Virus record (IMG/VR): IMGVR_UViG_3300010885_022963
Location: 1 to 27,019 of that record
From: a virus
Strand: one strand, 5' to 3'
DNA length: 27,019 nucleotides
Shown piece by piece: positions 4,129 through 25,212 of this stretch (the first letter of the stretch is position 1; every line of letters starts with the position of its first letter). The notes beneath the pieces were generated by a model. That model made no database searches. It was not told where the DNA came from and saw only the letters and a list, made by a program, of their open reading frames with translations. The position numbers were made by a program, and so were the translations under genes.

Positions 4129-4974
4129 TTATGTGCTCCAAGCGTTCTTAAATAAGGGAACTTGGAGTCTGTCACTGTATCTCAATCCATGCTTTATTGC
4201 AAATTCAGCGACCCGACGATTATTTAGTGTGTATACACTCTCTACTCCACCTACAGGCATCAAATATACAGGGCCGGTAAAACCCGCCGCACGATAGATG
4301 TCTGTTGCTGCTAATGCTTCTTCAGCATCTTCTTCTGTAGCAATAACAAACTTGAGATATGTATAACCGACATCTTCATATTCACAAACGACATCTGGTT
4401 GAATAGCTATGTCGGGATGCTCCCCGCTGCAACTTAATTTGGCACTTACACTAAAAGTAACTTCTCTACGCAGGTCTCGGTCTTTCCAGTCAGTAAGAAG
4501 ATATTTTTTAAACGTTGGGTCTAGGTATTGGGTGCCGTTTGTTTCAAAAGTAATCTCTTGTAATCCTGCCATCTTAGGATGACTTAGCAGATCAGGATAA
4601 GCCCGTTGCCACCCTAGTAACGGTTCACCACCTGTGATAACCAAGTGCTCATCTTTCCAACCGCGGTATGGCAGTATATCCATAATGCCATCAACAATAT
4701 CCCCGGTATCAAGCACAGGAGACAAATGTTTAAAACGAGGATCCCAAGATGCATAAGAATCGCATCCCGTGCTGACGAGTGGTAGGGATTTATAATTCGT
4801 AAAAGTCTCTGCATTAATTTTGTCTCGCTCAACACTCATTTCTCCCTTTGGCATTCCGAAGCCCCCGCATGTAAAATTACAACCAAACGTTCGCAAGAAG
4901 ATCGACGGTACTCCCATATATCTTCCCTCTCCCTGAATTGAATAAAATAGTTCGCTCACTTTGATTTTGCTCAT
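4129..4974 (-). CDS. queE: QueE-like radical SAM enzyme, 7-carboxy-7-deazaguanine synthase, 281 aa
   Basis: QueE converts 6-carboxytetrahydropterin to 7-carboxy-7-deazaguanine, the ring-forming step of the preQ0/queuosine pathway. The N-terminus is typical: SELFYSIQGEGRYMGVPSIF (residues 7-26) then LRTFGCNFTC. The SAM-binding GGEP motif is at residues 115-118 (VITGGEPLL). The cluster motif is unusual: C32 and C36 are in place, but the residue where the third cysteine of CxxxCxxC should be (39) is Phe, and the next cysteine is C71 in TGCDSYASWD, after a 30-residue insertion. The ATG overlaps the glycosyltransferase stop (ATGA, 4971-4974), so the two are co-translated from the promoter at 6060-6088. 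Confidence 0.88.
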   Translation of the reverse strand: MSKIKVSELFYSIQGEGRYMGVPSIFLRTFGCNFTCGGFGMPKGEMSVERDKINAETFTNYKSLPLVSTGCDSYASWDPRFKHLSPVLDTGDIVDGIMDILPYRGWKDEHLVITGGEPLLGWQRAYPDLLSHPKMAGLQEITFETNGTQYLDPTFKKYLLTDWKDRDLRREVTFSVSAKLSCSGEHPDIAIQPDVVCEYEDVGYTYLKFVIATEEDAEEALAATDIYRAAGFTGPVYLMPVGGVESVYTLNNRRVAEFAIKHGLRYSDRLQVPLFKNAWST

Positions 4975-6119: not shown

Positions 6120-6935
6120 ATGAGTCATAACATCTTCAATGTTAATAAATATCATCGTTGGTACTACAACATTATCAACAATCGATTAAAACATCCCCCG
6201 ACAGGTTATTTTGAGAAACACCATATAATTCCAAAATGTCTGGGGGGAACTAACGATGCCCTAAATATAGTATGCCTGACTGCTCGAGAACATTTTATAT
6301 GTCATATATTATTGGTAAAGATAACAAACGGCGATGATAACAAAAAAATGCGTAGAGCAGTTGGGATGTTCAAAATGGCGACCTCTAGGGTTCATAGAAA
6401 ACCGACTCCTAAACAATATCAAACTATTAGAAAACTGACTGCTGAACTTCCTAACTCGATGAATAATCCAATGACAAAATCTAAACATTTAGATTCTATA
6501 GCAAAAAAAGTAGGTTATGCCAATCATGAAGAATATGCTAATGTTATATTTTCTGCTTTTGAAGAATGTAAAACAATCAAAGGAACTTCGGTTAAATTAA
6601 GTCAATCTCAGCATACTATTCTACAATTTATATTAAAACATAAAGGTAAAGAATGGTTAGAAGAAATTCGCAAAGTAGGGTTAGCAGAAGCAAAAGCCCG
6701 ACAACTTGAAAATATTCCTTTTAGGAAAAAGGTAATAAAGTATGGATATTTAAATCCAAATGCGTATGTATGGGAAGCAACTTCGCCATCCGGAGAAGTC
6801 ATAATACTAAAAGGCAATAGGAATGATTTCTGTAAAGAAAACAGCATAGGAACATCACTTAATACAACGAAGCCCCATTTAAGGGGCTTCTGGGAGTTTA
6901 AGAAAATATGTAAGGTAAAGGCCTACCGAACATAA
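6120..6935 (+). CDS. HNH homing endonuclease, 271 aa
   Basis: A free-standing HNH nuclease on the plus strand. The beta-beta-alpha-metal site is clear: EKHHIIPKCLGGTNDALNIV (residues 32-51) with H34/H35, the central Asn, and AREHFICH supplying the last histidines (H58, H62). The middle is basic and helical. The C-terminus (WEATSPSGEVIILKGNRNDF, then a segment ending RGFWEFKK) resembles the small DNA-recognition module often found at the end of phage HNH endonucleases. No Shine-Dalgarno precedes the ATG. It sits between the glycosyltransferase-queE and dpdA-queD operons, so it may spread with the base-modification genes. A perfect 8-bp GC-rich hairpin lies inside its 3' coding part (6869-6890). 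Confidence 0.82.
   Translation: MSHNIFNVNKYHRWYYNIINNRLKHPPTGYFEKHHIIPKCLGGTNDALNIVCLTAREHFICHILLVKITNGDDNKKMRRAVGMFKMATSRVHRKPTPKQYQTIRKLTAELPNSMNNPMTKSKHLDSIAKKVGYANHEEYANVIFSAFEECKTIKGTSVKLSQSQHTILQFILKHKGKEWLEEIRKVGLAEAKARQLENIPFRKKVIKYGYLNPNAYVWEATSPSGEVIILKGNRNDFCKENSIGTSLNTTKPHLRGFWEFKKICKVKAYRT
6869..6890 (-). terminator. GC-rich hairpin, possible terminator of the dpdA-queD operon
   Basis: GAAGCCCC (6869-6876) and GGGGCTTC (6883-6890) pair perfectly around ATTTAA. On the minus strand it lies downstream of the gene ending at 7058 and is followed by a T-rich run (GTTGTATT), like a weak intrinsic terminator. On the plus strand it is inside the HNH coding region and lacks a T-run. Confidence 0.45.
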
Positions 6936-8932: not shown

Positions 8933-10585
8933 TTATTGGTTAATATTTTCTTCAAGATTGCGTAATTGATCATCATCCGGATTAGCGAGATCGATCTCTT
9001 CAACCTTAGTAACTTGCTCTACTTCGAACAAACTTCCAAATGTATTTTGGGCAGGCCCACCTTGCAAGCGAGCACCTTCAAGACTGCGTAGGAACGGGCT
9101 AGCACGTTCGATCATTTCAAATGCTTCTGCCTTTGTCTTTGTGTTAAAGAGATCTTCAACAAGGCTATTAAAGTACAGAATATTGCGGGGAACCCAATCA
9201 CTGTGCTCGTCGCTCATATCAGCGCCCTTAACCTTCTTCCAATGCTGCCAATTGATCCTATCACGAGTCTTTTCAATCTCAATGTCCATTAATTGTTGAG
9301 CACGTTGCACAGCGATAATATGGCATTCGACATTATGGCCCATCATAAGAGCATACGCAAAACTATCCCACGATGTTCTATTTGGAATCTTGCCTAACTT
9401 ATTGAGTTTTGGAACAACATTATAATGCTCTTGATTTAAGTGATCAAACTTAACGCCGCCTAATTCTGCATCAGTCTTCCGGTCACCTACATTATAGTAA
9501 GCGATATCTGCCATAGTTAACCTACGACCGATGGACGACTCGAATGGGAACGGGATGTCGCTTCCAGCAAGGGATTTGTTGTCCGGGGCTTTGTCCATAA
9601 TAACGCTCCACCTTTTTGGGGTGTGGACTGCATTGGTGTAGACAAGTCCGTGTGCTGTTGCGATGAACGGTGAGGCGCAGTCAAAAGATATGGTAACTTC
9701 TTCATTGATATGTTTCCTGATTTGTCTTTGAATTAACGTTAAGTAACAACTCCAATCTAACTGAGCGGTGCCCAGAAAGTGGATCCAATTTTTGCCCTTC
9801 AGCAAACCATCTTCTCTCAGCGTCATCATACGCTTGAGAGTAATATCCATCTTGCACATATTGGCGCCACCAAAGGCCCAACCTTCTGCTTCGCGCCCAG
9901 CGTACTTGCCCTTGGCATCGCTAAATTCCTTAACACCGTTATACCACTTTTCAGCAGTATCCCAATCACCGCCTTGCAGCACATTGAGCCACTTAGTTTG
10001 TCCCATGCGATTCATTAGGAAGTAATCATTGTTGAATCGTGTCTTATCAAGACAGTCTTCGAATGTTTTCAATCCTGTTTTTGGACTGTGAATGTGATCA
10101 CACGCCCACGTTGGAACGTCTAGCATCATTGACCAATCAGCAGTAACTTCTAGCCACTCTAGGATCTTTTGGCGAGTAGCATTTGCTTCCTTACCTTCAA
10201 AGTTTAGCCAGTCAAACTTCAGGACACCTTTACCGATCTGGTATCCACCTGAGTCACCGAGGATCATGGTGTTATTACGATCTCGTTGTTGAATCATAGA
10301 TTCTTGTATAAGACTCTTTTGTAGATCCAACTGTGCGTGTCCCGCGGAATACAGACCGTACTTGTAAGTAAAGTATCCTTCTTCGGGGTTTAGAAAGTTC
10401 ATACCTTCAATACCACGATCAAAGCCTGCTGGTATACGGGTTAGTGGAACAAACTCTTCTAGACGTTGTTTTGCAACGTAGGTGCTATAAAACGAACTGA
10501 TGGCCGGAAGGTACACTGCATACCGAAGTTTCCCGTCTTTATCTAGTTGTATACTTGATAGATCTACCGGTGGATTAGTTTTCAT
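8933..10585 (-). CDS. dpdA: DpdA-like (TGT-family) guanine transglycosylase, 550 aa
   Basis: Members exchange guanine for a 7-deazaguanine base; phage DpdA proteins do this in DNA, classical TGT in tRNA. The TGT active-site order is complete: LGDSGGYQ (D111, general acid/base), MMLDVPTW (D156), NVLQGG (Q204, base recognition), WAFGGAN (G239/G240), HFLGTAQ, and FDCASPF followed by ATAHGLVYT (D302 nucleophile, equivalent to the DCVxPTRxARxG block of TGT). The CxCxxC...H zinc site of tRNA-type TGT is absent, and the C-terminal 200 residues are different, both typical of DpdA relatives. The start is crowded: a small NUMOD3 remnant frame overlaps the first three codons. QueD- and QueE-like genes lie within 6 kb. 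Confidence 0.85.
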   Translation of the reverse strand: MKTNPPVDLSSIQLDKDGKLRYAVYLPAISSFYSTYVAKQRLEEFVPLTRIPAGFDRGIEGMNFLNPEEGYFTYKYGLYSAGHAQLDLQKSLIQESMIQQRDRNNTMILGDSGGYQIGKGVLKFDWLNFEGKEANATRQKILEWLEVTADWSMMLDVPTWACDHIHSPKTGLKTFEDCLDKTRFNNDYFLMNRMGQTKWLNVLQGGDWDTAEKWYNGVKEFSDAKGKYAGREAEGWAFGGANMCKMDITLKRMMTLREDGLLKGKNWIHFLGTAQLDWSCYLTLIQRQIRKHINEEVTISFDCASPFIATAHGLVYTNAVHTPKRWSVIMDKAPDNKSLAGSDIPFPFESSIGRRLTMADIAYYNVGDRKTDAELGGVKFDHLNQEHYNVVPKLNKLGKIPNRTSWDSFAYALMMGHNVECHIIAVQRAQQLMDIEIEKTRDRINWQHWKKVKGADMSDEHSDWVPRNILYFNSLVEDLFNTKTKAEAFEMIERASPFLRSLEGARLQGGPAQNTFGSLFEVEQVTKVEEIDLANPDDDQLRNLEENINQ

Positions 10586-10700
10586 TTCGTTTTTGTTCCC
10601 ATAGTTTTTTTCTCGATTCTGACATTTTTCTTTTGGTTTCTTCTGACATTACTCTACCTTTAAGTGTAGCACTTATTTTTTGTTTTTGCAAGTCCGACAT
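10575..10700 (-). pseudogene. NUMOD3 remnant of a homing endonuclease, 41 codons
   Basis: A small frame reading MSDLQKQKISATLKGRVMSE, then ETKRKMSESRKKLWEQK, ends inside the start of dpdA. It contains two NUMOD3-type DNA-binding repeats (S-x-x-x-x-x-K-I-S...K-G-R, S-E-E-T-x-x-K-M-S), like the tail of the HNH protein at 11844-12761. The frame is open upstream only to 10724 and has no nuclease domain. It is best read as the leftover C-terminus of an endonuclease gene that once sat before dpdA. It might still be translated, since an ATG is present, but nothing supports a function. Confidence 0.7.
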
Positions 10701-11843: not shown

Positions 11844-12761
11844 TTATTTAGATTTAGAGACTTTGTCAACCGGATTTTTATCCAGCCGTTTCCTATTTTT
11901 TGCCGCTTCTCGAAGTTTTTCCTTGTGTTCTTCAGTAAACACTTTTCCTTTTTTAGAGTCTGACATTTTCTTTTTTGTTTCTTCTGATTTAACTCTTCCT
12001 TTATTTGATTCACTTATTTTCTTTTTTTGTTCATCGGATAATGACTTTCCAAGATGTGAATTTGACATCCGCAGTCTTGCTTCTTTAGATCTACTTCTTC
12101 CTTTATTAGAAGCTGATATTTTTTCTTTTGTTTCGTCGGATAATATTTTACCAGCATTACCTTTGCTAATATTTTCTCGGTGAGTATTAGTAAGAATTTT
12201 TCCTTTATTGGCGTTACTGATATCTAATCTCATTTTTTCAGAAACCTCCTTACCATATATTTCTTCCCAAGTTTTTCCTATACGGCATTCTGACATATAT
12301 TTTTTAACACCTATAGTTCTTTTTTCTATCAACTCTTGTGGTTGTTTTTTTCCTGTAAGTGCAGCAGATATCTTTTGTCTAGTCTCAACACTTACAGGAT
12401 GACCTAAATTAATATTTCTTAAATGTTCTCTTGTTTTTGGATTAGCCATCCTATTGACTGCTAATTTATTAACTTGCAATCTTATTAACTCGTATGTTTT
12501 TGATGTAGTTCGACCTTTAGTTTTTCGAGTATCTGACATCATTAACAACGCACGTCCCATACTAAAATTCCTATGAATTTTCCATAATAAATAGTGAGCA
12601 ATAAAATGTTCACGTGCTGTCAATACAACAATATTTGCAGCAGAATTATCTCCGCCCATTGATCTGGGTAAAATATGATGCCGTTCAACGTATACATTCT
12701 TATCTAAAATTCTTAATTGTGATTGTACAATTAACTGGTTATAATGTTTCTGATAATTCAT
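11844..12761 (-). CDS. HNH homing endonuclease with long NUMOD3 repeat tail, 305 aa
   Basis: The N-terminal HNH site is VERHHILPRSMGGDNSAANI (residues 25-44: H28/H29, N43) followed by AREHFIAH (H52, H56). From about residue 120 to 290 the protein is a string of NUMOD3-type repeats of roughly 17-24 residues (for example TRQKISAALTGKK, TKEKISASNKGRS, EQKKKISESNKGR, TKKKMSDSKKGK), which should each read a short stretch of DNA. It lies between the polymerase C-terminal gene and the sliding clamp, in the same orientation. AGGAG at 12772-12776 is a strong ribosome-binding site but is buried in a perfect 12-bp hairpin whose loop holds a late-type promoter. Confidence 0.85.
   Translation of the reverse strand: MNYQKHYNQLIVQSQLRILDKNVYVERHHILPRSMGGDNSAANIVVLTAREHFIAHYLLWKIHRNFSMGRALLMMSDTRKTKGRTTSKTYELIRLQVNKLAVNRMANPKTREHLRNINLGHPVSVETRQKISAALTGKKQPQELIEKRTIGVKKYMSECRIGKTWEEIYGKEVSEKMRLDISNANKGKILTNTHRENISKGNAGKILSDETKEKISASNKGRSRSKEARLRMSNSHLGKSLSDEQKKKISESNKGRVKSEETKKKMSDSKKGKVFTEEHKEKLREAAKNRKRLDKNPVDKVSKSK
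11845..11852 (-). promoter_or_regulatory. Late-type promoter TCTAAATA for the sliding clamp
   Basis: Minus-strand TCTAAATA overlaps the stop of the HNH gene and lies 25 bases upstream of the clamp ATG (11820). A start 6-7 bases downstream leaves a leader with AAGGAA. It would let the clamp be made independently of read-through from the polymerase genes. Confidence 0.55.
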
Positions 12762-12812: not shown

Positions 12813-14021
12813 TTAACTGAATTCGAATAGAGAATTGAATGTGCTGGTTGCTTCAGTTGATGCAAGGTCAAAATCAAGAACGCCGATAAGATTATCAATT
12901 TTGTTATCAACAATAGTGGCTTCCATTTCGGCATGATCAAATGGTAGTTCTTGGAACCACTTTGGAATGTGCATTTCATCTACCGGATATGCGATGCTTG
13001 TATAGCCCAACGGATTGGCCTTTACCTTGCAAACGATAACCTTCATACCGTCAACAATGCCCATAGAATACTTGTCGCCGTTCATACGCTTTAGTGTATT
13101 CCAGTTGATTGCAGCGCGAACGTGCCCTGGCATATTTGCCTTACCTGCCTTCTTTTCTTTCTCTTGATATTCTGCAATATTGTTGGCTCGCTTTGGACTG
13201 CCCTTCTCCCATCCAGGCTTTGCTTTGAATTCAGTTCGGAATGTTGTAATCATCTCTAGAATCTCTGCTTCCTCGGCACCGTTAAGTACCTTGTCGAGAA
13301 TTTCACTCAGAAAGTTCTGCATAAATTCCGGAGTATCAGACCGTTTCAAATCTAACCCCATCGCCTTAATCTTACCGGGCTTGCCGTTCGTATCCTGCCT
13401 CTTGCCATCCTTGTCATAGTATAGCACAGCATACCGTTTCTTGGTAATGAACAAGCCTTTGCTTGCAACAATTTCGCGTCCTGCTTTAATCACTTCTCCA
13501 CGGCTCTTGGGACAATGAAAGTTATCGAGCATGAACTGCGGGAATGTGGCATTTACGTTATCAGAGATAGTATCATACAACTGAATGACAACATCCTTAT
13601 CCCACGGAATCAACTTCTTCTGGATATCAATCTTCAGTGTGTTGTATGCAGAGAAATAGCACGAGTCTGTATCACCATAGATAATGCTTTTACCTACGTG
13701 ATTAAATTCGCCTGTGATAATCTCATTCACCTTACCTGCCATGTGCTTTGCAATAGCACGACCTGTTAGTGTTGTAGATTGTCCAATGCGTTTATCGAAG
13801 AAGCGGCATCCTGCATTTAAAATAGCACCGTATAAGCTATTCAGATTAATTTTCTTAACCAACTGACGCTTGTCCCAGTATTCTTCTTGATCTTTTGCAT
13901 ATTTTTTGTCTGCAAATTGTATTTTTCCGTCTGCTACTTTTAATATCCCGGAATTGATTAATTTTCTTAATTCTTTAATGTTTTTATCTTGTATTAATTT
14001 TTTAATTTCTGTTGCTTGCAT
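12813..14021 (-). CDS. 43B: Family B DNA polymerase, C-terminal subunit (palm/thumb; gp43B-like), 402 aa
   Basis: This is the catalytic C-terminal half of a T4 gp43-type replicative polymerase as a separate gene. Motif B is KKINLNSLYGAIL (residues 56-68), motif C is IYGDTDS (114-120, catalytic Asps), and KKRYAVLYYDKDGKRQ is the conserved KKRY segment. The final residues FNSLFEFS resemble the clamp-binding C-terminal peptide of gp43. It starts MQATEIKKLIQDK, with AAGGA upstream and its own GCTAAATA promoter (14052-14059). Together with the N-terminal gene (544 aa) it adds up to 946 residues, close to an intact polymerase (T4: 898), so nothing essential is missing. The two must assemble as a dimeric enzyme. 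Confidence 0.9.
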   Translation of the reverse strand: MQATEIKKLIQDKNIKELRKLINSGILKVADGKIQFADKKYAKDQEEYWDKRQLVKKINLNSLYGAILNAGCRFFDKRIGQSTTLTGRAIAKHMAGKVNEIITGEFNHVGKSIIYGDTDSCYFSAYNTLKIDIQKKLIPWDKDVVIQLYDTISDNVNATFPQFMLDNFHCPKSRGEVIKAGREIVASKGLFITKKRYAVLYYDKDGKRQDTNGKPGKIKAMGLDLKRSDTPEFMQNFLSEILDKVLNGAEEAEILEMITTFRTEFKAKPGWEKGSPKRANNIAEYQEKEKKAGKANMPGHVRAAINWNTLKRMNGDKYSMGIVDGMKVIVCKVKANPLGYTSIAYPVDEMHIPKWFQELPFDHAEMEATIVDNKIDNLIGVLDFDLASTEATSTFNSLFEFS

Positions 14022-14037
14022 TTCTTTTCCTTAAAAT

Positions 14038-14059
14038 GCTAAATAAGTTTATATTTAGC
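14038..14059. promoter_or_regulatory. Palindromic pair of divergent late-type promoters
   Basis: GCTAAATA (14038-14045, plus) and TATTTAGC (14052-14059, GCTAAATA on the minus strand) form a perfect 8-bp inverted repeat with a 6-base spacer. The plus copy faces the zinc-ribbon endonuclease (ATG 14072) and the minus copy faces the polymerase C-terminal gene (ATG 14021). Each is 14-31 bases from its start codon. Confidence 0.65.
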
Positions 14060-14071
14060 GAGAGAATAATT

Positions 14072-14746
14072 ATGGTCAAATACACACAACACCAATATGA
14101 TGAGATGCTTAAAAATAGGCATCTTGTTGCACTTGACCCGTATAACGGAATGAATACACAAATAAGACACCGTTGTCTTATCTGTAATAGTATATGGAAA
14201 ACTCGACCTGGCGTAATCCGAGATGACAAAGAGTGCAGGCATTGTTATAAACTCCGCGTTCGAAAATCGTTAAAATTAGTGAAATCGCAGTTATCTGCGC
14301 TGAATTGGGAATTTATAGATGAATCTAAATATATTAATTCATACACCCGTGTGCTATTAAAACATACTTGTGGTAACATTATTAATGGTAATATAGATTG
14401 CGTGTTAAGTAAAACTCGAAGATGTTTGCAATGTGAGCCAAGGGTGTTAAAAAACATGTGGAGTATTCCTGTAGAAGTAAACGGCCGTAACTATTATTCC
14501 AACATCGAAAAAGATTGTTGCGAATATCTTATTGATACATTCGGAGTTGATGATGTTATTCTTCATAAAAACTATTCTATTAATTCTAAAAAAGAGTGTG
14601 ATGCGTATATTAAAAGTAAGGATTTATATATCGAAATAAGTACCATTAACAAAGATTGGTATTTAGAAAGGATTTATAAAAAACGACAATTAGTTACAAA
14701 CTTTATGTTTGTGTCATCTCTCGATCAATTAAAATTATTTTGTTAA
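14072..14746 (+). CDS. Putative free-standing homing endonuclease: two zinc ribbons plus PD-(D/E)xK-like domain, 224 aa
   Basis: This plus-strand gene lies in the break of the split polymerase. I start it at 14072 (MVKYTQHQYDEM), with GAGAG upstream, because the longer frame enters the polymerase gene. Two zinc ribbons are visible: C35/C38...C55/C58 (RCLICNSIW; ECRHCYK) and C100...C118/C121 (HTCGNI; RCLQC). The C-terminal domain has E146 in SNIEKDCCEYL, D177 in KKECDAYI and E188 in LYIEIS, the order of a PD-(D/E)xK or Vsr-like nuclease core, followed by an RIYKKRQL helix. No GIY-YIG, HNH or LAGLIDADG motif is present. The position argues strongly for a homing nuclease; the nuclease fold is my inference. 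Its stop overlaps the polymerase N-terminal gene by 12 bases. Confidence 0.7.
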   Translation: MVKYTQHQYDEMLKNRHLVALDPYNGMNTQIRHRCLICNSIWKTRPGVIRDDKECRHCYKLRVRKSLKLVKSQLSALNWEFIDESKYINSYTRVLLKHTCGNIINGNIDCVLSKTRRCLQCEPRVLKNMWSIPVEVNGRNYYSNIEKDCCEYLIDTFGVDDVILHKNYSINSKKECDAYIKSKDLYIEISTINKDWYLERIYKKRQLVTNFMFVSSLDQLKLFC

Positions 14747-16369
14747 CACCTCTTCAAACTCTGCATCTATACTGATTCCTGATCCTAAATCTATACATGC
14801 TTTTAACTCTGCTTGGAGACCCTTCCGTTCAGCATACCAACGCTTTAACAAGCCCGGGATAATACCTTCTTGCTCGTGTGTGAAAATAGTCCCGTTTGCA
14901 CTTAACATCCACGGCTGATTACTTTCGAATATTAATCTATAAACTTCCGCAGCACTCATTACATCACTGTCACCGTTTTCCCACTCAACCGTAATTTCAA
15001 ATGCTTTGTCTTGTCTCATCACGGCTTCATATTCAATTGACCCAAACAGTCCTTCCCATGCCGCCGCAAATGATTTCTTATGTAGCGTCATTTGCTCGTG
15101 GATAAATTCGTCTGTTTTTGTTTGACGCAATTGTCCAACAATTGTTTCAGGTCCCATATTCAACGCACGAATCACAGATGGATATAGTGAGTTAATGTCC
15201 ATGCTACCGATCCAATCGTGCAACCCTTTTTTAGGATATGCAACATACGCACCCGCTGCTTGATTGTTTGCGTTTTCATCTCGATGAGCACGAGCAGGAA
15301 CCATCATTCCCTTATGGTGTGCTTCGTTAACAATTGCTTGTTCAGTAACCGCAACTGCCCCCATAGTAGTTTGCAATAATACGGTATTTTCGTGAGCAAT
15401 GGTATTAGCAAGGTCGATAAACTTTAATTTCTTATCTAACTTATCTAATAGTGCAGTATCTTGTCTATTGTATTCGATAAACTTTTTAAAGTCTTTGTTA
15501 TACAATTGGTCCAAGGTTCCTTCATATACCGTTTTCCTTTCACCTAGTTCATAGGTTGCAATAGCATCTAATCTATAACTGTGCCGTTCTTCGTATGTGA
15601 ATTTTTGATATAATGAAAGACTGTCTAGATGAACTCGTCCAACTAAGTCGTATGTAACAGCATCCTTTCCATATTTTTCGTATTCACGTTTCTTTGGAAA
15701 TTGGTCCCATAGACAGAATCTGCGGGTGTCTTCTTTACTCAATGTTTTTGTAACACGATTAACGGTGTAGGGAATATCGTATCCCTCACTATTCCACCCG
15801 CTTATTACATCAGCATCGTCTATTAAGTTTAGAAATGCATCCAACATCTCGCCTTCTGTTTCAAAGAGAATTGTGTTAGGAAAGTCTTTTACTTGCTCCT
15901 TGGCCTGTTCCATTGTTAGAGTTTTGGGCGGAACAGCAAGGCACACTAAGGTATCTAACCATTGTAAATGCACTGAGATTGCAGTGATTGGCATGAACGC
16001 ATCTTCAGGAGTGCTAAACCCTTTTTCTGGCGAAAAATCTGTCTCAATGTCGAAAAACGCTACATTTAGTTTCGGCGGTTCCGCCCCGAGATAGTTTTCT
16101 TCTAAACAACGGAATACAGGTTTGATATCACTTTCATATAACTTGCGTTCACCGTGGATACGGATTTCTTTCTGAAAGTCTTTATTGTTTTTACAGGTTA
16201 CCTTTGTAAGGTTCTCTCCGTAAATTGATTTGTATTTTCCCTTGCGGTCAGGGTAGTAAAATACATATCGGGCAGCGTACTCTTGGAAGAGCCTGCCCTT
16301 TTTGGGATCTCGTTCGACAACTTTGATGATGTCTTTTTCTTTGTCCCATATGGAATCAACATATGACAT
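14735..16369 (-). CDS. 43A: Family B DNA polymerase, N-terminal subunit (exonuclease/palm; gp43A-like), 544 aa
   Basis: The N-terminal half of the replicative polymerase, with a complete 3'-5' proofreading site: Exo I FFDIETDF (D107, E109), Exo II SGWNSEGYDIPY (D198), Exo III YNRQDTALLDK (D304). Palm motif A is GSMDINSLYPS (D391). It ends in the fingers helix (IIPGLLKRWYAERKGLQ, then a short unique tail), exactly where the C-terminal gene takes over. I chose the ATG at 16369 (MSYVDSIWDK) because AGGAG sits five bases upstream and the fold starts there; the longer frame to 16417 has no such site. A hairpin just before the ribosome-binding site (16387-16403) recalls the T4 gp43 operator. Confidence 0.9.
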   Translation of the reverse strand: MSYVDSIWDKEKDIIKVVERDPKKGRLFQEYAARYVFYYPDRKGKYKSIYGENLTKVTCKNNKDFQKEIRIHGERKLYESDIKPVFRCLEENYLGAEPPKLNVAFFDIETDFSPEKGFSTPEDAFMPITAISVHLQWLDTLVCLAVPPKTLTMEQAKEQVKDFPNTILFETEGEMLDAFLNLIDDADVISGWNSEGYDIPYTVNRVTKTLSKEDTRRFCLWDQFPKKREYEKYGKDAVTYDLVGRVHLDSLSLYQKFTYEERHSYRLDAIATYELGERKTVYEGTLDQLYNKDFKKFIEYNRQDTALLDKLDKKLKFIDLANTIAHENTVLLQTTMGAVAVTEQAIVNEAHHKGMMVPARAHRDENANNQAAGAYVAYPKKGLHDWIGSMDINSLYPSVIRALNMGPETIVGQLRQTKTDEFIHEQMTLHKKSFAAAWEGLFGSIEYEAVMRQDKAFEITVEWENGDSDVMSAAEVYRLIFESNQPWMLSANGTIFTHEQEGIIPGLLKRWYAERKGLQAELKACIDLGSGISIDAEFEEVLTK

Positions 16370-16386
16370 ATTTTTCTCCTTTTGTG

Positions 16387-16403
16387 ATTTGCGGCCCACA
16401 AAT
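16387..16403 (-). promoter_or_regulatory. Hairpin next to the polymerase ribosome-binding site
   Basis: In the minus-strand RNA, ATTTGTG and CGCAAAT pair (7 bp, one G-U) around GGC, six bases before AGGAG. A competing stem TTTGTG/CACAAA would abut AGGAG directly. T4 gp43 represses its own translation by binding a hairpin in the same position. Confidence 0.4.
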
Positions 16404-16411
16404 ACCGACTT

Positions 16412-16429
16412 GATCAATTATGGTTGATC
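16412..16429. repeat. 6-bp inverted repeat upstream of the polymerase gene
   Basis: GATCAA (16412-16417) and TTGATC (16424-16429) around TTATGG lie in the 70-base leader between the membrane-protein gene and the polymerase. It could be a protein-binding site or a small hairpin; too short to interpret. Confidence 0.3.
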
Positions 16430-17595: not shown

Positions 17596-18843
17596 CTATT
17601 TCTTTTTTTTTAATTCGTTTAACTTGTTGTCTAACGATTCAAAATATGGATCAACACTTTCATTTTTTGGATGTTTGATATGTGCCCATGCAATGCCTTC
17701 AGCATCCTTTTTAGACTTGCCCTTCTTCATCATACTTTTAGTAATATGTGATGCTTGTCTGTCTACCTTTTCACCTTCCGCCACACCTTGCTCGCCAGAC
17801 TTACGATATTTGATCTTGCTACTGCTACGCATAGCATCATATGACGCATCTGGATCAAACCCACCTACCTGTTCGCCGGTCCCGTCTATAATTTTATAGT
17901 AATCTACAGATCCTTCATCTGCTGCTAAATCCTTTTGAAACTCTAATTCATCTTCTGCGTCCTGTAAAGATTTATATGTTCCAATATGACTCATGCGGTG
18001 TCTATCGCCCTTGAATAATTTGAATGGGCCAAAACCACCTTCGCCCGGATCAAATTCTTGTAAAGAGCCTTCCGCCACACCTTTCGATTTATCCAATGGA
18101 ATATTCTTCATCAATTGTTTAGTTGGCACGCCGTGTTTTTTGGCATACTTGTGACCAAACATTCCCGCCATTGATTTTGGATCTTTTTCACTTTGAGTTT
18201 TTGATGCTCCCTGACGAATCGCTAAATTGTCACTTTTTATACCACCTTTTGGTATGTATGATCCGTCTGTGTCGAGATCGTGTGCGTCAGGATGGGTTCG
18301 CCATTTAGCAGCCTCCGCCACACCTTGATTCATCGCTTGCCAATCGTCGTGGCTGATATAAAAATCACTATCGGGATCGTAGTATTTGCCTTCACGCTTG
18401 TCATAATAAACAACCTTGCCACTCTTGGTATGGAATGGTCCTTCTAATCCCGGACGCTCTTGGTAGCGTTCTTTATCAATACCAGGGACAACTTTATATC
18501 CCTCTACTACTTTACTTTTTAAATCAGCTAACCTGTCTTGCAGTTCTTCCATATACGGCTTTTTGTGTTTAGCATTGCCTTGCTTCTGTTCTTTCTTCTT
18601 ATCCTTGTGAGCACCTGCACCGCCTGTCTTAGCATTCTTTGCAACGAAGTTTCGCGGAGTAGATGCCGGAACTTTATCCTTGCTTGCTTCTTGAGCAATA
18701 AGATTGCCACCGCGCTTGCGAACACCTCCCATTGGGCTGCTAACACTTGCGATGCTGCCGGAACTAGTACCACCGCTTGACGCGCTTTCTAACGTGTAAA
18801 CAGTTTGGGACTTGCCCTTTGTGATTTTAAATTCTTTGTTCAT
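17596..18843 (-). CDS. Probable capsid cargo/virion protein with GVAEG linkers, 415 aa
   Basis: A 415-residue, highly basic and partly disordered protein. I start it at 18843, where ATGA overlaps the upstream stop, rather than five codons earlier. Residues 1-100 are Ser/Gly/Lys-rich. Compact modules follow, separated by linkers: KVVEG (about 112), NQGVAEA (173), SKGVAEG (255), EQGVAEG (352). Modules include EGPFHTKSGKVVYYDKREGK and MSHIGTYKSLQDAEDELEFQ, typical of small domains in large marine phage proteins. The linker VAE/G resembles the T4 prohead-protease rule (L/I)xE/(A,G,S), so the protein may be cut inside the prohead. It ends ELKKKK on A-AAA-AAG, followed by an open -1 frame. Confidence 0.75.
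   Translation of the reverse strand: MNKEFKITKGKSQTVYTLESASSGGTSSGSIASVSSPMGGVRKRGGNLIAQEASKDKVPASTPRNFVAKNAKTGGAGAHKDKKKEQKQGNAKHKKPYMEELQDRLADLKSKVVEGYKVVPGIDKERYQERPGLEGPFHTKSGKVVYYDKREGKYYDPDSDFYISHDDWQAMNQGVAEAAKWRTHPDAHDLDTDGSYIPKGGIKSDNLAIRQGASKTQSEKDPKSMAGMFGHKYAKKHGVPTKQLMKNIPLDKSKGVAEGSLQEFDPGEGGFGPFKLFKGDRHRMSHIGTYKSLQDAEDELEFQKDLAADEGSVDYYKIIDGTGEQVGGFDPDASYDAMRSSSKIKYRKSGEQGVAEGEKVDRQASHITKSMMKKGKSKKDAEGIAWAHIKHPKNESVDPYFESLDNKLNELKKKK
17602..17608 (-). other. Candidate -1 frameshift site A-AAA-AAG
   Basis: On the minus strand nine A's and a G end the 415-aa gene, in frame as TTA AAA AAA AAG AAA TAG. This contains the dnaX-type heptamer A-AAA-AAG in the correct phase, six bases before the stop. 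The -1 frame is open for 59 further codons. The A-run could also cause polymerase slippage or an assembly error. Confidence 0.5.
17773..17795. repeat. Linker repeat encoding EQGVAEG, copy A
   Basis: A 23-base segment identical to 20422-20444 in a different gene. Core on the plus strand: CCTTCCGCCACACCTTGCTC. Confidence 0.75.
18068..18083. repeat. Linker repeat encoding GVAEG, copy B
   Basis: Shares CCTTCCGCCACACCTT with copies A and D; encodes SKGVAEG. Confidence 0.65.
18312..18327. repeat. Linker repeat encoding GVAEA, copy C
   Basis: CCTCCGCCACACCTTG, one base different from the core; encodes NQGVAEA. Confidence 0.65.
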
Positions 18844-19214
18844 TTTTTGCTCATCCAATTTGATATCGGGCTCACTCTATGTGTGTCCTTTGGCTCTTCA
18901 CTCTTACACCACGGTGTTACTTCTTTGCTGTCAGTTGGCACCGTTGCCTCAGCCGACCTAAACATATTGTATTCTTCTTCAGTGTAAGGATGTTGGGTAT
19001 TGTACTTTTCAACCCAACTTGCTCCATCCATCTCCACGGGTTTCTTACTCTTGCCATCGGCTAGTGCAGTTGCCATCCATAACCGATTCATATGATATGT
19101 GCGATCATATCCGCCTTTATCGCGAGACTTAGAAACACCTTGCTGAACAGCGGCATGCTTCTTCTTCATCTTACCTTCTTTGCGGTTTTCAATAATAAAT
19201 TCGTGTGCTCGCAT
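18840..19214 (-). CDS. Probable capsid-targeted protein with N-terminal MRAHEFIIE leader, 124 aa
   Basis: A 124-residue protein. The leader MRAHEFIIENRKEGKMKKKH resembles the T4 capsid targeting sequence (MKTYQEFI-x-E), and IIE ends with a possible prohead-protease P1 glutamate, although the next residue, Asn, is unusual. The body (GVSKSRDKGGYDRTYHMNRL, MATALADGKSKK, WVEKYNTQHPYTEEEYNMFRSA) is one I recall as a recurrent module in metagenomic marine myophages. No enzyme motif is seen. Its stop is coupled by ATGA to the 415-aa gene, and it lies next to the giant cargo protein, so all three are probably packaged with the DNA or internal to the head. Confidence 0.72.
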   Translation of the reverse strand: MRAHEFIIENRKEGKMKKKHAAVQQGVSKSRDKGGYDRTYHMNRLWMATALADGKSKKPVEMDGASWVEKYNTQHPYTEEEYNMFRSAEATVPTDSKEVTPWCKSEEPKDTHRVSPISNWMSKK

Positions 19215-19220: not shown

Positions 19221-19481
19221 CTATTTAGCCCGTCCAAACCAAAGTTTAAACCACTCGTTAGTTCCGGGGTTAATGCCCTGTTCTCGCTGTATCTGCCCTT
19301 TATTACTGCCCGCAACGGGCTGTCGTAATGTTGCATTGTATGCCGCTAGCTTTTCTGCACTACCTAATCCACCCATAGAAGATGCTATCTTTAGCTCGTG
19401 TATGGGATCTGTAGGAGCAAGATAGCAATCATCGTCACTATCCTGCGTTATATTATCGCTTGAAATTCTGTATTGCTTCAT
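19221..19481 (-). CDS. Small protein with conserved C-terminal FKLWFGRAK tail, 86 aa
   Basis: An 86-residue protein starting MKQYRISSDNITQDSDDDCY. The C-terminus NPGTNEWFKLWFGRAK is distinctive and looks like a short docking peptide. The middle holds IHELKIASSMGGLGSAEKLA, predicted helical. Its ATG lies 29 bases inside the end of the 1919-aa gene in another frame, and it is followed six bases later by the 124-aa leader-bearing gene. This tight packing suggests co-expression with the virion cargo block. Function unknown. Confidence 0.65.
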   Translation of the reverse strand: MKQYRISSDNITQDSDDDCYLAPTDPIHELKIASSMGGLGSAEKLAAYNATLRQPVAGSNKGQIQREQGINPGTNEWFKLWFGRAK

Positions 19482-22400
19482 TTACTATAATCTTGTTTAT
19501 AAGAACATCCATGATGTTTTCACAATCTTCGCTGATCGGAACCTGCTTATCTTTATCGTCCTTAATATTAACAGCCGGTAGCGGTTTATTAAATTTAAGA
19601 ATTACTTCAGATCTGAATTTGTTATATGTTGAAATATTATTAAACATAAAAGTTTTATATATGCCAACTTCTGACTGTTGATCTGACGGATATTTAATGA
19701 TTTGTCCCTTGGCTGTTTTAAATATAACACTATCACCCTGTTTATCAACGAACTCTAGCATTGACAGATCGGTATCTAATAATCTTAGTTTATTTTGTAT
19801 AAGAACTAACGGAACAACTAGATAGTTTCCCCCAATTGTTGGGTTGATCAGATAATGATTAAGGTTATTAAAATATTTGATATAATGCTCATCAGATTCT
19901 AAAAGTTGCCCTTCTGCATGAAACTTTTCAAAAATATCCATCCTGTCTTTTACTGAGAACTCTTCTCCGAGACTTTTCCATTGAACTGTTTTGTTTATGC
20001 TCTCTTGTGCAGATCCGCCGACTAAATCACCTGCTCTTGCGGCACGATTCTTAGAAGGACCGGTGTTCTTCCACTGTCCCGCGGATCCTAATTTGTTCTT
20101 GCTTGATCCAGTGAAGGCGCTCTTTAGCAGCATCTTCTCTGCAACCTTCTCATCCTTCTTTGGTTCATCCTTCTTTGGGATGCTTGACGGGATAAGTGAA
20201 TTTTTCTGTGCTGCTGCTGTTCTACCTTGAGTGCGTTGAATTGCGGCTGCTAATCTTAACGCAGCACTTTTTGCCTCGCCTACGCCTTGCTGTTTAGTAG
20301 GTTTCTGAAACGCTTTTTGTTTCTTTCGATAATCAGCCTCTGCCTTGGCTGCTGCGGTAGCAGCCTTTGTTGGCTTACCTTTTTGTAAAGTAGGGTCATA
20401 TAACGGGCCGTTCCAATCATTACCTTCCGCCACACCTTGCTCGCTTAACCCGAACCCATCACGGATGGCGTTCATTAATTCGCTTACGCTTGCCTCTGTA
20501 TTAGGTAATGATTCTTGTTCTCCGATACGAGGGTCACCTTCTTCTATAGTACCTAGTGCGTATGTAAAGAACCCTTCTCCAGCGTTATCTATTATAACGG
20601 TATAATATTGGTCATCGGATTCTTGTCCTCTAGTACTGAACATAAAGGTGCCGTCTGCTTTACGAGTACCTTTCCAACCCATAGCCTTCATTGCGCTATT
20701 AACCTTATTAACAACTTCAGGCCACGGTAATGCAGTTCCTAGAGAACCCTCCGCCATTGGAGCCTTAACACCGCGCTTCTGTAGTTCAGCCTGAAGAGCC
20801 TGTATCTTATTTGGGGCACGAGCAATAGCATTGCGAATATCGCCTGCTACCTTAGACGGCAGTTTGCTTAACACATTATTAACAATCTGTTCAGCCTGGT
20901 CCATTTGCTTGCCAGTGGCTTGATTACGGTCTTTAGTTGCAGCCTTTTGAGCAGCACGTTTCTCTGCTTCAGGATCCTCTTCATCCCAATCATCTCCACC
21001 TTGTAATTCTAAATCACCTAGGTATTGGTCGTAATTCTCACGGGCTTGTTGCCATATGCTAGCGTGTCTTGCTAACTCTTTATTGCCCATACGGCGACCC
21101 ATCGCTTCTAAAATCTCCGGAAGTTCGCTTGCTAACGCATTAAAATTCTTTGGCAGTTTGCCCAATAGGTCATTTAGGTCAGCACTATATCTAGGAGCCT
21201 GTTGTGTTAAATGACGCAACTCTTTACCTAACTTGTTGAAGTAGAAATTATTGTACCAACGAGCGGCAGCACCTGCGGCTACCATTTGGAATCCTTTTAG
21301 ATCCCCACGACGATCCACATATTGCTTCGCCATGTTTTTCATTGTGCTGTATAGTTGTAGCACTGGCTCCCCGATGTCATTGATAACTGCTCGTAGCGTA
21401 GTTTCTAAACTCGGTCCTTCAGCAATAACATCTTCATGCGGAAATAATTGCTGTGTTAATTTAGTGATCATGTGTTTCAAAAATTCAGGATTATTCCATT
21501 GTTCTTGAGTCCAATCCACTACACCCGGACGTGGGCGATATCCGGTTGCTTCTTTATGAAGATCCCATAGTTCTTTTTGGAGATGGTTAATATCCTCCTC
21601 ACCTTCCGCTACACCTTGCTCCTGCGGATCATTAATTTCGCCTAACTTATTACGAATAAGCTGAATGAACTTTCTGTGTGTGCCAGATAGAACTCGTTTA
21701 CTCTCGATATAATTTAAGATTTGTTCAGTTTCGTTCTTGTATCTTTCTCTCCACTCTGGTGTTTTAGCAGTGGCAATATCTTGAACGTTGTCTAATCTAT
21801 CTGCAAGTTTAATCACAAGAGCGTAGCTACTCATAGTGGCCATTTTTTGTGATAGGTACTGAGCTTTTCCTAGTTGCTTGATTTTTTCTTTGTCGCTAGT
21901 TAACTCTTGTACCAAAGACGCAACTAATCCACCAAATAATGCTTCTAAATCTTCATGTGTTGTATGCGTATCTTCAACAGTGTCGTGTAATAATGCGGCA
22001 CTAATAATGGCATCTAGATTGTGCGACTGCTTGTATTGTTCAATTGAATTTGCTACATTTGTTGGGTGAGAAATATAAGGAGCCCCGCCTGATCTAGTTT
22101 GACCAGCATGTGCCTGCGTTGCAAATTGTAATGCTTGTTCTTTATCTTCATCTGTATCGAACTCTTCTACTACTCTTCGAGGTCTAACAAGGGCATTGAA
22201 TAACCGTTGTTCTGCTACTGGCGCAGGTTGCTGCACCGGCGGTGTTTGTGGTTGTTGTGGCATTTGAATTCCCATACCTTTTCTTGATACATCCATTAAG
22301 TGCTTAATCCAATCAGCTGGCAAAGGCGCTGCCCCAGACGAGCCTCCATTAAACGCATTGGTCCAATCGGCTAATGCTTCTTCAGGTGATTTAGTTTTTA

Positions 22401-25212
22401 GAGCATTGCGTAAATTAGTAAAACTTACACCGGTACCTCGTGGCGTAACTTTTAAAGTTACCTTAACGTGTTCATATCCCGGAAACTTATTAACAGCCTT
22501 CATCAACGCAGCCGGCATATTCAATCCTGCTCTATCTTCACCGACCATAATAATAATATTATCATAGCGTGGCGATTTGCCCGGCAAAGGATTAATCAAC
22601 TCGTGCTTGATCTTTTGTATTAATGTGCCACCTTCGTGTGTGACAGCACTGATATTTTTAGCATACTGCGGGTACAACATGTGCCATGTTTTAACTTTGT
22701 CGGGAATCGGAATAGGATCATCTTTGCCTTCGGCATTGCCAATAAACAAATAAGCATCTCCGCCCGCCGCCGCTGCTTCGTCTTGTGTAAGTTTAAATAA
22801 TTCCTGATGTCCTATGTGCCCTGCAAAGCTACCTATAGCAACTACAGCGGTCTTAACGTTATTTTCACGAGGTTGTTCTGCCCATGCGGCTTTTTTTGCA
22901 GCATTCTTAGCAGAAATAACACCGCGTTGCTCTGTGCTTGTGACCTTGATAGGACCCATTCTGCTATTGATAACAATGCCTTCGTAATCCTGTCCTAGCT
23001 TATCTTTCCCGATAATATTAGGATCTTCAATGATGGCTTTTTCTAGCGCGACTTTTACAGGTTCTAATGCAGCGGCAACTTCTTGCTTCCTCTTTAGTGA
23101 ACCAGGCGACTTGTCTTGCAACATTGCCTTAAACATTTCTAAGTTCTCTAACGGAGGAACCATTGCAGTGACATCAAGTGCTTCGTTTTGTGTTAGACTA
23201 TTGTCAATAAACATAACACTGCCTGCTTGGCCTATGCTGGTTAATTCTGTAACAACCTGATTGGCATCCGGTAAATCTTCACCGGTTGTAGCATCTACAA
23301 CACGGAACGGAACTAATGCAAGTTGAACACCTTCCGGCAACTTATCATAGTGTATTCCCACAAACTTTAATTTGCCTTCTGGAGTTTCTGTAGCAAACGG
23401 TAGATACAATACTTCGCAAGTTACTTGCTTATTGATTAGGAAATCTGGACCTAACTTACCATCAACTAGTTTAACTACTTTCATCATTTCGTTAAACAGA
23501 TCGTCAAATAGTTTTGCACGACCTAATATCTCTGGATCAGTTGTGCCTTTCTTTTGATGATAGGCTACAAATCCTGCTTGGTATCTCGGCTCTGTTCTGC
23601 TTGTGCCCATGAAAGGCTTACCGTCTGCGTTCTTACCAAAGCGACCGCCAAACCCGTCTACCTTTACATTCAACGGCATATTTTGTAGTTTAAACTTGCC
23701 ATTACCGTCGTGAATTTCATCTAGCAGGTCTAGTAAATCCAACGGCTTTAGATCGTGCAGGTGTGGCATACCTTTTCGTAGTTGTGCCTTGACCTGCGCG
23801 CCAGGCTCGTCTGCTTCTTCGATGCTTTCTGTTGGCGCCACCGCCCGTTGTTTCATCATAGCAGCTCTAGGTTGCTTTTCGTTGGGATTAGCTTTCTTAA
23901 ATGCATCTACATCTTGATAGTCTTGTGCATACACTTTTGCCATTTGTTCAGCCATTGGCCTCATTTCTTCTAGACCGAGAGTTGTTAGCATTGCATTTAC
24001 GGCTGCAAATTTTACATCATAATCTCTTGCAGGATCATCCTTAGTAATCATTTGAGCGCCGGGCTCAAATACAATATCTAAAAAGTCTGTTAACGTTTTT
24101 TTCTTTGCTTGATCATCTAGATACTTGTTCATTAACTCAAGTGTGCCCACAAAGCTATCTTGTAGTTTTCTATCATCACCTTGTGGAGCCCGCCCAAAGA
24201 ACAACTGGAATTGTTTGTTTAGATTCTGTTCGTACTCGCTTTGGTCACTCTTCAACGGTTCCATAACAGGAATACCGTCTATTACTTTGGGTTGATTTGT
24301 TTCTGGATCAATGTAAGGTTTGTACTTTGCACGAATGCCACCGCCACCTTTGCTGGCCACAGCGAAAGAAAAGTTTGCATCAGTTATAGGACCAGAGATA
24401 GCCATTGCTCTCTTTTTTCCTAGTCCCGTTAATTTTGCGATATACTTTTCACTTGGTACTGCTTTCGCAAGTGCTCTGTAAATGTATTTGTGGAATACAC
24501 CTTTAATGTTCTGCTGAATATCTTCCCATGAAGAACTATGACTGAACTTAGTCCATTCATCGGGCTTGTTAGTTTCGGGAGCATATCTACCGTATTCAAA
24601 ATCTATCTGTACTTTGATAGGTGGATTAGCTAGTTGCCACAGCGTGTTGTATTGTTCGTTGCCTTGACTCGGCGATCCTATCAATGTTTCGTTTCCGATT
24701 GGACGCCCGACATTGTTGTTTAAGAAGTCTAATATCTCATCTTGTAGTTCTTGATTACATTGTATATCAATGTCGCCTACCTTTGGTTTATACTTTTTAA
24801 ATTCTTCATCAGAAATGCCAATCGTTTTAGGATTGTGCTCTGATTCTGGTTGTTTTGGGTCAAAGTGCGGATTAGGCCTTAACAGATCAAAGAAATGTTG
24901 TGACGATCCAGCCATGAAGTCTTTAATTGCAGTATCTATTAACTTTTGATTCCACAGCGGTTTTTTATAGGCGGCATTAAATGCTGTGTTAATGTCGGTG
25001 AATAATTTAGTTAGCACGCCTACCATGTGAGTGCGGTCTTGTACTTCATCGCTGATTTCAGTTGGCGCTAATTGAATTTCCTGCGCTTGGATAACCTTGG
25101 GATTTAATTCTGATTCAGGTTGGGCAGGATCAAACTTGGGATTAGGTATTTCTAGATTGCCGCCCTCTAGTAATGCTGCCTTGTGTTTTTTAAAAAGTTC
25201 ACGTAGGATCAT
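19453..25212 (-). CDS. Giant multidomain capsid-cargo polyprotein: two nucleotidyltransferases, ligase-like, SpoT-type HD domain, 1919 aa
   Basis: A 1919-residue protein with AGGGA before its ATG. Domains in order: (1) leader 1-16 ending LLE/GG; (2) Pol-beta-like nucleotidyltransferase, GDIDIQ (146-151) and KVQIDF (D204); (3) ATP-dependent ligase-like domain, KVDGFGGR (517-524, lysine-nucleotide motif), EGIVI (744-748), PIKVT (K756); (4) HxGH nucleotidyltransferase, GHIGHQ (H799/H802) and VSFTNLR (929-935), as in NMN adenylyltransferases; (5) HD phosphohydrolase of RelA/SpoT type, YISHP (H1049), LLHDTVED (H1076/D1077, E1080/D1081), KLADRLDN (D1138), with no synthetase domain; (6) several helical modules to the end. 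Linkers resembling prohead-protease sites lie at about 466, 1203, 1265, 1488, 1596 and 1646. Overlap with the 86-aa gene and a 1-base gap to the 120-aa gene suggest one late operon. Confidence 0.85.
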   Translation of the reverse strand: MILRELFKKHKAALLEGGNLEIPNPKFDPAQPESELNPKVIQAQEIQLAPTEISDEVQDRTHMVGVLTKLFTDINTAFNAAYKKPLWNQKLIDTAIKDFMAGSSQHFFDLLRPNPHFDPKQPESEHNPKTIGISDEEFKKYKPKVGDIDIQCNQELQDEILDFLNNNVGRPIGNETLIGSPSQGNEQYNTLWQLANPPIKVQIDFEYGRYAPETNKPDEWTKFSHSSSWEDIQQNIKGVFHKYIYRALAKAVPSEKYIAKLTGLGKKRAMAISGPITDANFSFAVASKGGGGIRAKYKPYIDPETNQPKVIDGIPVMEPLKSDQSEYEQNLNKQFQLFFGRAPQGDDRKLQDSFVGTLELMNKYLDDQAKKKTLTDFLDIVFEPGAQMITKDDPARDYDVKFAAVNAMLTTLGLEEMRPMAEQMAKVYAQDYQDVDAFKKANPNEKQPRAAMMKQRAVAPTESIEEADEPGAQVKAQLRKGMPHLHDLKPLDLLDLLDEIHDGNGKFKLQNMPLNVKVDGFGGRFGKNADGKPFMGTSRTEPRYQAGFVAYHQKKGTTDPEILGRAKLFDDLFNEMMKVVKLVDGKLGPDFLINKQVTCEVLYLPFATETPEGKLKFVGIHYDKLPEGVQLALVPFRVVDATTGEDLPDANQVVTELTSIGQAGSVMFIDNSLTQNEALDVTAMVPPLENLEMFKAMLQDKSPGSLKRKQEVAAALEPVKVALEKAIIEDPNIIGKDKLGQDYEGIVINSRMGPIKVTSTEQRGVISAKNAAKKAAWAEQPRENNVKTAVVAIGSFAGHIGHQELFKLTQDEAAAAGGDAYLFIGNAEGKDDPIPIPDKVKTWHMLYPQYAKNISAVTHEGGTLIQKIKHELINPLPGKSPRYDNIIIMVGEDRAGLNMPAALMKAVNKFPGYEHVKVTLKVTPRGTGVSFTNLRNALKTKSPEEALADWTNAFNGGSSGAAPLPADWIKHLMDVSRKGMGIQMPQQPQTPPVQQPAPVAEQRLFNALVRPRRVVEEFDTDEDKEQALQFATQAHAGQTRSGGAPYISHPTNVANSIEQYKQSHNLDAIISAALLHDTVEDTHTTHEDLEALFGGLVASLVQELTSDKEKIKQLGKAQYLSQKMATMSSYALVIKLADRLDNVQDIATAKTPEWRERYKNETEQILNYIESKRVLSGTHRKFIQLIRNKLGEINDPQEQGVAEGEEDINHLQKELWDLHKEATGYRPRPGVVDWTQEQWNNPEFLKHMITKLTQQLFPHEDVIAEGPSLETTLRAVINDIGEPVLQLYSTMKNMAKQYVDRRGDLKGFQMVAAGAAARWYNNFYFNKLGKELRHLTQQAPRYSADLNDLLGKLPKNFNALASELPEILEAMGRRMGNKELARHASIWQQARENYDQYLGDLELQGGDDWDEEDPEAEKRAAQKAATKDRNQATGKQMDQAEQIVNNVLSKLPSKVAGDIRNAIARAPNKIQALQAELQKRGVKAPMAEGSLGTALPWPEVVNKVNSAMKAMGWKGTRKADGTFMFSTRGQESDDQYYTVIIDNAGEGFFTYALGTIEEGDPRIGEQESLPNTEASVSELMNAIRDGFGLSEQGVAEGNDWNGPLYDPTLQKGKPTKAATAAAKAEADYRKKQKAFQKPTKQQGVGEAKSAALRLAAAIQRTQGRTAAAQKNSLIPSSIPKKDEPKKDEKVAEKMLLKSAFTGSSKNKLGSAGQWKNTGPSKNRAARAGDLVGGSAQESINKTVQWKSLGEEFSVKDRMDIFEKFHAEGQLLESDEHYIKYFNNLNHYLINPTIGGNYLVVPLVLIQNKLRLLDTDLSMLEFVDKQGDSVIFKTAKGQIIKYPSDQQSEVGIYKTFMFNNISTYNKFRSEVILKFNKPLPAVNIKDDKDKQVPISEDCENIMDVLINKIIVNEAIQNFKR
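20273..20292. repeat. Linker repeat encoding QQGVGEA, diverged copy
   Basis: GCCTCGCCTACGCCTTGCTG is a diverged version of the linker repeat at the QQGVGEA joint (residue 1646 of the giant protein). Confidence 0.5.
20422..20444. repeat. Linker repeat encoding EQGVAEG, copy D
   Basis: Identical over 23 bases to 17773-17795, although the two lie in different genes and the sequences on either side are unrelated. Confidence 0.75.
21601..21621. repeat. Linker repeat encoding EQGVAEG, copy E
   Basis: Matches copy A over 21 bases with one difference (C to T within the Ala codon region); marks the joint after the HD domain (residue 1203). Confidence 0.65.

Follow-up and report, generated by a model that had tools for sequence, protein, structure and literature searches.

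We analysed a 27,019-nucleotide stretch of viral DNA (IMG/VR record IMGVR_UViG_3300010885_022963, positions 1 to 27,019; hereafter, the window), in which one gene for a 1,919-amino-acid protein appears, from sequence comparison, to encode a polyprotein of a T4-like freshwater phage: enzymes made as one chain, addressed to the head and cut at the joints between them. Processing of such a packaged chain by a gp21-type protease is likely on the same grounds. We consider quite probable the explanation as a whole, i.e., a capsid-targeted polyprotein, gp21-type cutting, release and ejection of the enzymes, an origin from fused leader genes, and joints formed by a short DNA element. An earlier note on this DNA had proposed a self-packaging polyprotein cut by the prohead protease; comparison strongly supports its leader and several of its joints, and its interpretation as a whole in part. 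The support for the leader and joints comes from site conservation, leaderless orthologues that begin at the predicted P1' residue (the residue after the cut), modules that are separate genes in some phages and fusions in others, conversion of leaders to joints, and a syntenic gp21 gene.

In the proposed mechanism, residues 1-16 would act like a T4 capsid-targeting sequence and bring the chain into the prohead core, and a gp21-type protease would cut after (aliphatic)-x-E at the leader and joints. This would release module A, modules B and C together, the HD module (a predicted alarmone hydrolase) and several small modules. The enzymes would probably be retained with the DNA and ejected at infection, as are T4 Alt and the internal proteins, and early in infection the HD module might reduce (p)ppGpp levels. 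The packaging, cleavage and ejection steps are modelled on T4 (PMC9026906, PMC5694885, PMC7411985, PMC9958956). The chain would have arisen by fusion of once-separate, leader-bearing genes, with in-frame copies of a 20-bp element as its VAE/G joints.

Leader, joints and modules of the chain

The giant protein recognized in the earlier note is a genuine open reading frame (ORF), located on the minus strand (25212 to 19453); the plus strand of this interval is riddled with stop codons. All of the sites listed in that note are present at the named residues: E16 (LLE/G), E466 (IEE/A), E1203 (VAE/G), E1265 (IAE/G), E1488 (MAE/G), E1596 (VAE/G) and E1646 (VGE/A). Two additional candidate joints are E1001 (VAE/Q) and E1912 (VNE/A).

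The 16-residue leader was borne out by relatives of the polyprotein drawn from IMG/VR (L001-L014). The leader end is (L/I)xE/GGN in 10 of 11 sequences (the window and IMG/VR relatives), with V at P3 in the remaining one and P2 free. A distant module A orthologue, gp100 of Campylobacter phage CP220, starts with MKLSELMFILE/GGN, and the orthologues in a Vibrio phage and in Xanthomonas phage X1 are leaderless and start with M-GGN, i.e., at the predicted P1'. The internal head proteins of T4 that gp21 processes carry an N-terminal propeptide of 10-20 residues ending in (L/I)xE, the form that is found in MILRELFKKHKAALLE/G; the N-termini of T4 ipII and ipIII read MKTYQEFIAE/A. The A/B joint (E466) is (L/I)xE in all 11 sequences, followed mostly by A (S once, D once), and the linker that precedes it varies in length and sequence. 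Other joints have counterparts as well: the module after residue 1265 is preceded in relatives by LVE/G, LNE/A or LDE/S, and the E1646 joint corresponds to QQGVAE/ARMSAAQRL in L001 and to IDE/A or LNE/A in others.

The modules also occur apart. In L015, B, C and A are three genes, with the leaders MRLMRFRTFLKE/GGN for A and MKLIRFKTFLKE/Q for B, and the three are likewise separate genes in X1. An alternative fusion, MKKISEFLCE/G … TINE/GGN, is found in L016, a contig that also encodes gp21. In five relatives (L009, L010, L011, L013 and L014), the protein of the gene next to the polyprotein gene in the window is fused onto the chain, and its leader is retained as a joint (MRAKEFLAE/L, MRASEFTRKKLAE/G and others).

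Module A is predicted to belong to the Pol-beta nucleotidyltransferase superfamily, with a GS motif, DxD and a third acidic residue; G86-S87-S88, D131, D133 and D188 are invariant. The AlphaFold model of this module has a predicted local distance difference test score (pLDDT) of 89, and many Pol beta/mu/X and MenT4 structures are among its best PDB matches in Foldseek, although these matches are weak (E>=0.01). Module B has the invariant ligase-type motifs KxDG, EG and Lys. The model of B and C together is of only moderate quality (pLDDT 74), and pLDDT falls below 50 on either side of the E466 joint. Homology of module C to several relatives stops at residues 1012-1020. The HD domain (approximately residues 1022-1190) matches Pfam HD_4 (2e-17), the SpoT/RelA subfamily TIGR00691 over its HD part (6e-29), and MESH1 structures across the domain (3nr1, 6e-20); by sequence similarity, it is predicted to be an alarmone hydrolase domain of the SpoT/MESH1 type. 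Here, unlike in the known hydrolases, the domain sits inside a chain with a predicted capsid address. The HD module is missing from L001. Annotation of the proteins with Pfam, NCBIfam and PADLOC yielded little beyond this domain.

A 20-bp coding element at module borders

At the DNA level, the VAE/G joints represent copies of one 20-bp element, GAGCAAGGTGTGGCGGAAGG, and the QGVAEG-type joints of the window have similar or identical DNA across two neighbouring genes, the polyprotein gene and the gene of protein Q, which holds three copies. IMG/VR was scanned with a pattern that was free at all synonymous positions. Among the matches listed, the element occurs in hundreds of viral joints, concentrated in few genes per genome; the codons in 136 EQGVAEG sites of 119 loci are strongly biased relative to background (GCG.84 vs.12, GTG.85 vs.22, GAG.76 vs.24), and 249 of 249 near-exact DNA copies lie within the longest ORF, in one frame and on one strand. 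Conservation drops sharply at approximately 20 bp. At six loci (L028, L039, L046, L050, L068 and L122), EQGVAEG appears to be a chance occurrence in an unrelated phage protein; these loci only dilute the statistics. The exact 20-mer has one occurrence in 257 Gb of bacterial and archaeal genomes, with approximately 0.5 expected by chance, which rules out a general bacterial sequence; this lone cellular copy (Psychromonas sp. CD1, L147:7625-7644) is consistent with chance. Among isolated phages, the element was not found in KVP40, CP220, Vibrio SRILMA or three cyanophage records, and X1 has only two weak matches with three mismatches. Three types of module present in L152, L153 and many element proteins (CWKGY…GMKxKxGxxxPNCVP, DACYxKVKxxxKVWPSAYASG and DUF6321-like) are found again in cyanophage proteins that lack the element.

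The pattern of variation within the element resembles that of a protease site. Of 127 copies that lie in non-homologous contexts and that the scan pattern had not selected, all have V, M or I at P3 and 125 have E at P1, with more variation at P2 and P4. Second-base changes number zero at P3 and at P1, seven at P2 and 11 at P4 (p=0.014 and 0.0008). The relaxation of P3 to V and M, assumed in the earlier note, gains support from this comparison: element copies take V, M, I or L and little else at P3, and V is also found there in some MRAxEF leaders and in the presumed N-terminal site of gp21 of the clade. At element-free starts of homologous modules, [LIVM]xE falls exactly at the joint in 56 of 208 cases, compared to approximately five at most other offsets and to 10 in a D/K/Q control; there is a second peak of 26 at +5. 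The same module elsewhere starts straight after a leader (MRAKDILNE/DWQKVNK, MRIHELLSE/DWNKVNH, MRASEFITE/SAAWQK). Taken together with the element-free starts, these versions make the joint, the leader end and the element look interchangeable. Conservation at the DNA and protein levels could be compared at orthologous joints for five pairs only.

By sequence comparison, the element marks module borders across this phage group. Modules of equal length recur beside differing neighbours (e.g., 67 amino acids five times and 73 amino acids three times), and, of the internal homology breakpoints, 36% fall no more than 2 amino acids from the element, compared to 8% at masked decoys. Relatives of Q match it module by module (1-120, 112-183 or 359-402). 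Two adjoining genes of L001 (966-6026 and 6628-8082) have common C-terminal modules (QQGVAE/ARMSAAQRL…, CWKGxxxxGT…, SEDVENIMDALINKI), which suggests recent copying of modules within one genome. No convincing case was seen of a protein altered solely by a clean insertion of the element; many cases that appear to lack the element hold another (L/I/V/M)xE or a decayed copy. The element probably provides both homology for swapping modules and a cleavage site at each new border. The more specific proposal, that the DNA of the joint serves as swap homology, that its frame preserves open fusions and that the prohead protease cuts its peptide, GVAE/G, so that each new module is freed in the head, is in our judgement about evenly balanced.

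Alternative readings and known systems

It should be noted that several observations weigh against a packaged, protease-cut chain. Motif counting alone is not significant: strict (L/I)xE/[AGS] occurs seven times in the polyprotein, versus 4.0 expected (p=0.10), and bare counts were dropped as proof of cleavage sites. After a harsher collapse of related element sites (n=37), P1 stands out and P3 does not, and P1' of element copies is often D, E or V, outside the A/G/S preference of T4. The strict MRAxEF-type leader is no commoner in element proteins (8/124) than in others (63/1133), and the looser leader pattern, found in 54% versus 22%, was chosen after viewing the sequences. The gene for gp21 was not found in the 27-kb record. 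The relaxed rule [LIVM]xE/[AGS] is mildly enriched (12 vs 6.3 expected, p=0.03), and [LIVM]AEG (4 vs 0.18) and QGV[AG]E[GA] (3 vs 0.002) are far above chance. A strict match, LPE/G at E627, falls within module B; the motif by itself is therefore insufficient, and further evidence is required.

As for the protease, neither gp21 nor gp23 was found in the window or in most of the polyprotein-bearing fragments, which probably reflects how short these fragments are. In a 167-kb contig (G039), the gene order around the polyprotein, small genes, Q and DNA polymerase matches that of the window, and gp21, gp22 and gp23 are encoded as well. Four long element-bearing contigs from the first scan (119-300 kb) encode gp21, and none was found in a fifth (136 kb). 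The T4 enzyme cleaves at L/I-X-E (PMC9026906), and sites assigned by eye in G039 are plausible for the major capsid protein (YLGE/SATAGATS) and for the N-terminus of gp21 (IVLE/S, with V at P3). The N-termini of Q relatives (YTLE/SMTAGATGSGSVAT and YVLE/SATSMGSGS) are similar to YLGE/SATAGATSTGNIAT, where the mature major capsid protein presumably begins.

The joints could be solely a DNA element, either a recombination site or a mobile coding repeat, with an accidental likeness to protease sites, and E16 and E466 could still be genuine. The strong fixation of synonymous codons is what a DNA-level unit would give, the sequence is nearly confined to phages, and homology breakpoints fall at it. 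However, this does not account for the constancy of frame and strand among the listed near-exact copies, for second-base changes that spare the P3 and P1 codons, or for the many homologous joints that retain [LIVM]xE without the DNA element, and we regard this explanation as rather unlikely. An uncut multidomain enzyme, working whole in the cytoplasm or the head with its AE/G joints as flexible linkers, is in keeping with the many known fusions of metabolic enzymes and with the leaderless module A orthologues of the Vibrio phage and X1, which are probably not packaged; yet linkers explain neither the near-invariant P1 Glu, aliphatic P3 and free P2, nor the conversion of leaders to joints and the [LIVM]xE at element-free module starts, which makes this explanation improbable. 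Least credible, and very improbable in our view, is a scaffold-like substrate, a core protein shredded like gp22, gp67 and gp68, with fragments that exit the head. The well-known multiply cut substrates of T4 are indeed core proteins, most fragments of which are lost (PMC9026906), and many modules of the tail are small, but A, B, C and HD have the appearance of folded enzymes, with catalytic motifs that are invariant or canonical, and the conserved joints fall between the enzyme modules, not within them.

The packaged polyprotein shares features with known systems. As in the predicted leader, a short N-terminal propeptide ending in (L/I)xE directs T4 IPII, IPIII and Alt into the prohead and is cleaved by gp21; Alt, an enzyme, is processed at both termini, at ITE-6 and LTE-619 (PMC5694885). 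These are, however, one retained protein per gene, compared to up to about ten modules per chain, with internal sites, here. Several post-Glu cuts by a gp21-type protease also occur in T4 gp22, gp67 and gp68 and in head proteins of the giant phages phiKZ and SPN3US, but those cuts remove scaffold or propeptide fragments, with no enzyme string described, and cleavage in the giant phages is at S-x-E or A-x-E, unlike here. Short DNA repeats that mediate modular shuffling in T4-type phages, the promoter-early stem loops (PeSLs), are reported in work that we cite through PMC4503421 (10.1093/gbe/evq006, 10.1093/gbe/evu129). As described there, PeSLs are promoter-terminator cassettes that shuffle genes, whereas the present element is coding, frame-fixed and intragenic, encodes a peptide resembling a protease site, and lies inside ORFs in all of the near-exact copies listed, unlike a non-coding regulatory repeat.

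We found no paper in the open-access literature on QGVAEG, on phage polyproteins with a prohead protease, on a packaged multi-enzyme polyprotein, or on a joint that is in frame, conserved as DNA and at the same time a protease site. To our knowledge, delivery of a string of enzymes in the form of a self-packaging polyprotein has not been described for any phage. Single-protein substrates of gp21 and PeSL shuffling were already known, and the shuffling joint is the larger novelty. If the proposed reading is correct, nucleotidyltransferases and an alarmone hydrolase enter the head as products of a single gene, ready for use at the very onset of infection. The cargo would be whatever sits between (aliphatic)xE joints behind a leader, and the common joint would offer a simple means of reading off what hundreds of uncultured T4-like phages inject. 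The element would then preserve the reading frame when phages recombine protein modules, and would represent a prokaryotic equivalent of exon shuffling that is coupled to cargo packaging.

Features of the window

Table 1. Positions of the polyprotein gene, its modules, the element copies and the neighbouring genes
Feature	Positions	Strand	Basis
Polyprotein gene, 1,919 amino acids	19453..25212	-	ORF and relatives L001-L014
Leader (1-16), MILRELFKKHKAALLE, predicted capsid-targeting propeptide; joint E16/G17	25165..25212	-	Conservation in relatives
Module A (17-466), predicted Pol-beta-like nucleotidyltransferase fold; ends at joint E466/A467	23815..25164	-	Motifs, predicted structure
Module B (467 to about 781), putative ligase/capping-type nucleotidyltransferase	22870..23814	-	Motifs; separate gene in L015 and X1
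Module C (about 782-1001), putative HxGH nucleotidylyltransferase (FAD synthetase/NMNAT fold); candidate joint VAE1001/Q	22210..22869	-	
HD module (1002-1203), predicted SpoT/MESH1-type (p)ppGpp hydrolase domain	21604..22209	-	Pfam, structure and subfamily matches
Small module (1204-1265); ends at joint VIAE/G	21418..21603	-	Residues preceding the downstream module in relatives
Module 1266-1488; ends at PMAE/G	20749..21417	-	Homologous module in L001 and L049
Module 1489-1596	20425..20748	-	Flanked by MAE/G and an element copy
Module 1597-1646; ends at decayed element QQGVGE/A	20275..20424	-	Site reading and relatives
C-terminal module (1647-1919); candidate C-terminal site VNE1912/A	19453..20274	-	C-terminus common to two L001 genes
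Element copy EQGVAE1203/G	21601..21621	-	
Element copy EQGVAE1596/G	20422..20442	-	
Neighbour gene with its own leader, MRAHEFIIE/N	18840..19214	-	Fused to polyprotein in five relatives
Protein Q (420 amino acids), second element-bearing protein; joints VVE119/G, VAE182/A, VAE263/G, VAE361/G	17596..18858	-	
Element copy in Q, QGVAE/A	18310..18330	-	
Element copy in Q, KGVAE/G	18067..18087	-	
Element copy in Q, EQGVAE/G	17773..17793	-	

Elsewhere in the window, a family B DNA polymerase is encoded in two ORFs (12813-16417, minus strand), with a 244-amino-acid plus-strand ORF between them (14012-14746); the polymerase is unsplit in the syntenic contig G039 (L171). A QueE-like 7-carboxy-7-deazaguanine synthase (4129-4974) and a possible tRNA-guanine-transglycosylase/DpdA-like protein (8933-10585), both on the minus strand, point to possible 7-deazaguanine modification of DNA. 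Four ORFs resemble homing endonucleases (GIY-YIG/HNH, with repeated NUMOD-type motifs), two on the plus strand (2752-3345 and 6120-6935) and two on the minus strand (10575-10700 and 11844-12761), and a 102-nucleotide repeat is associated with them at 10608 and 11949.

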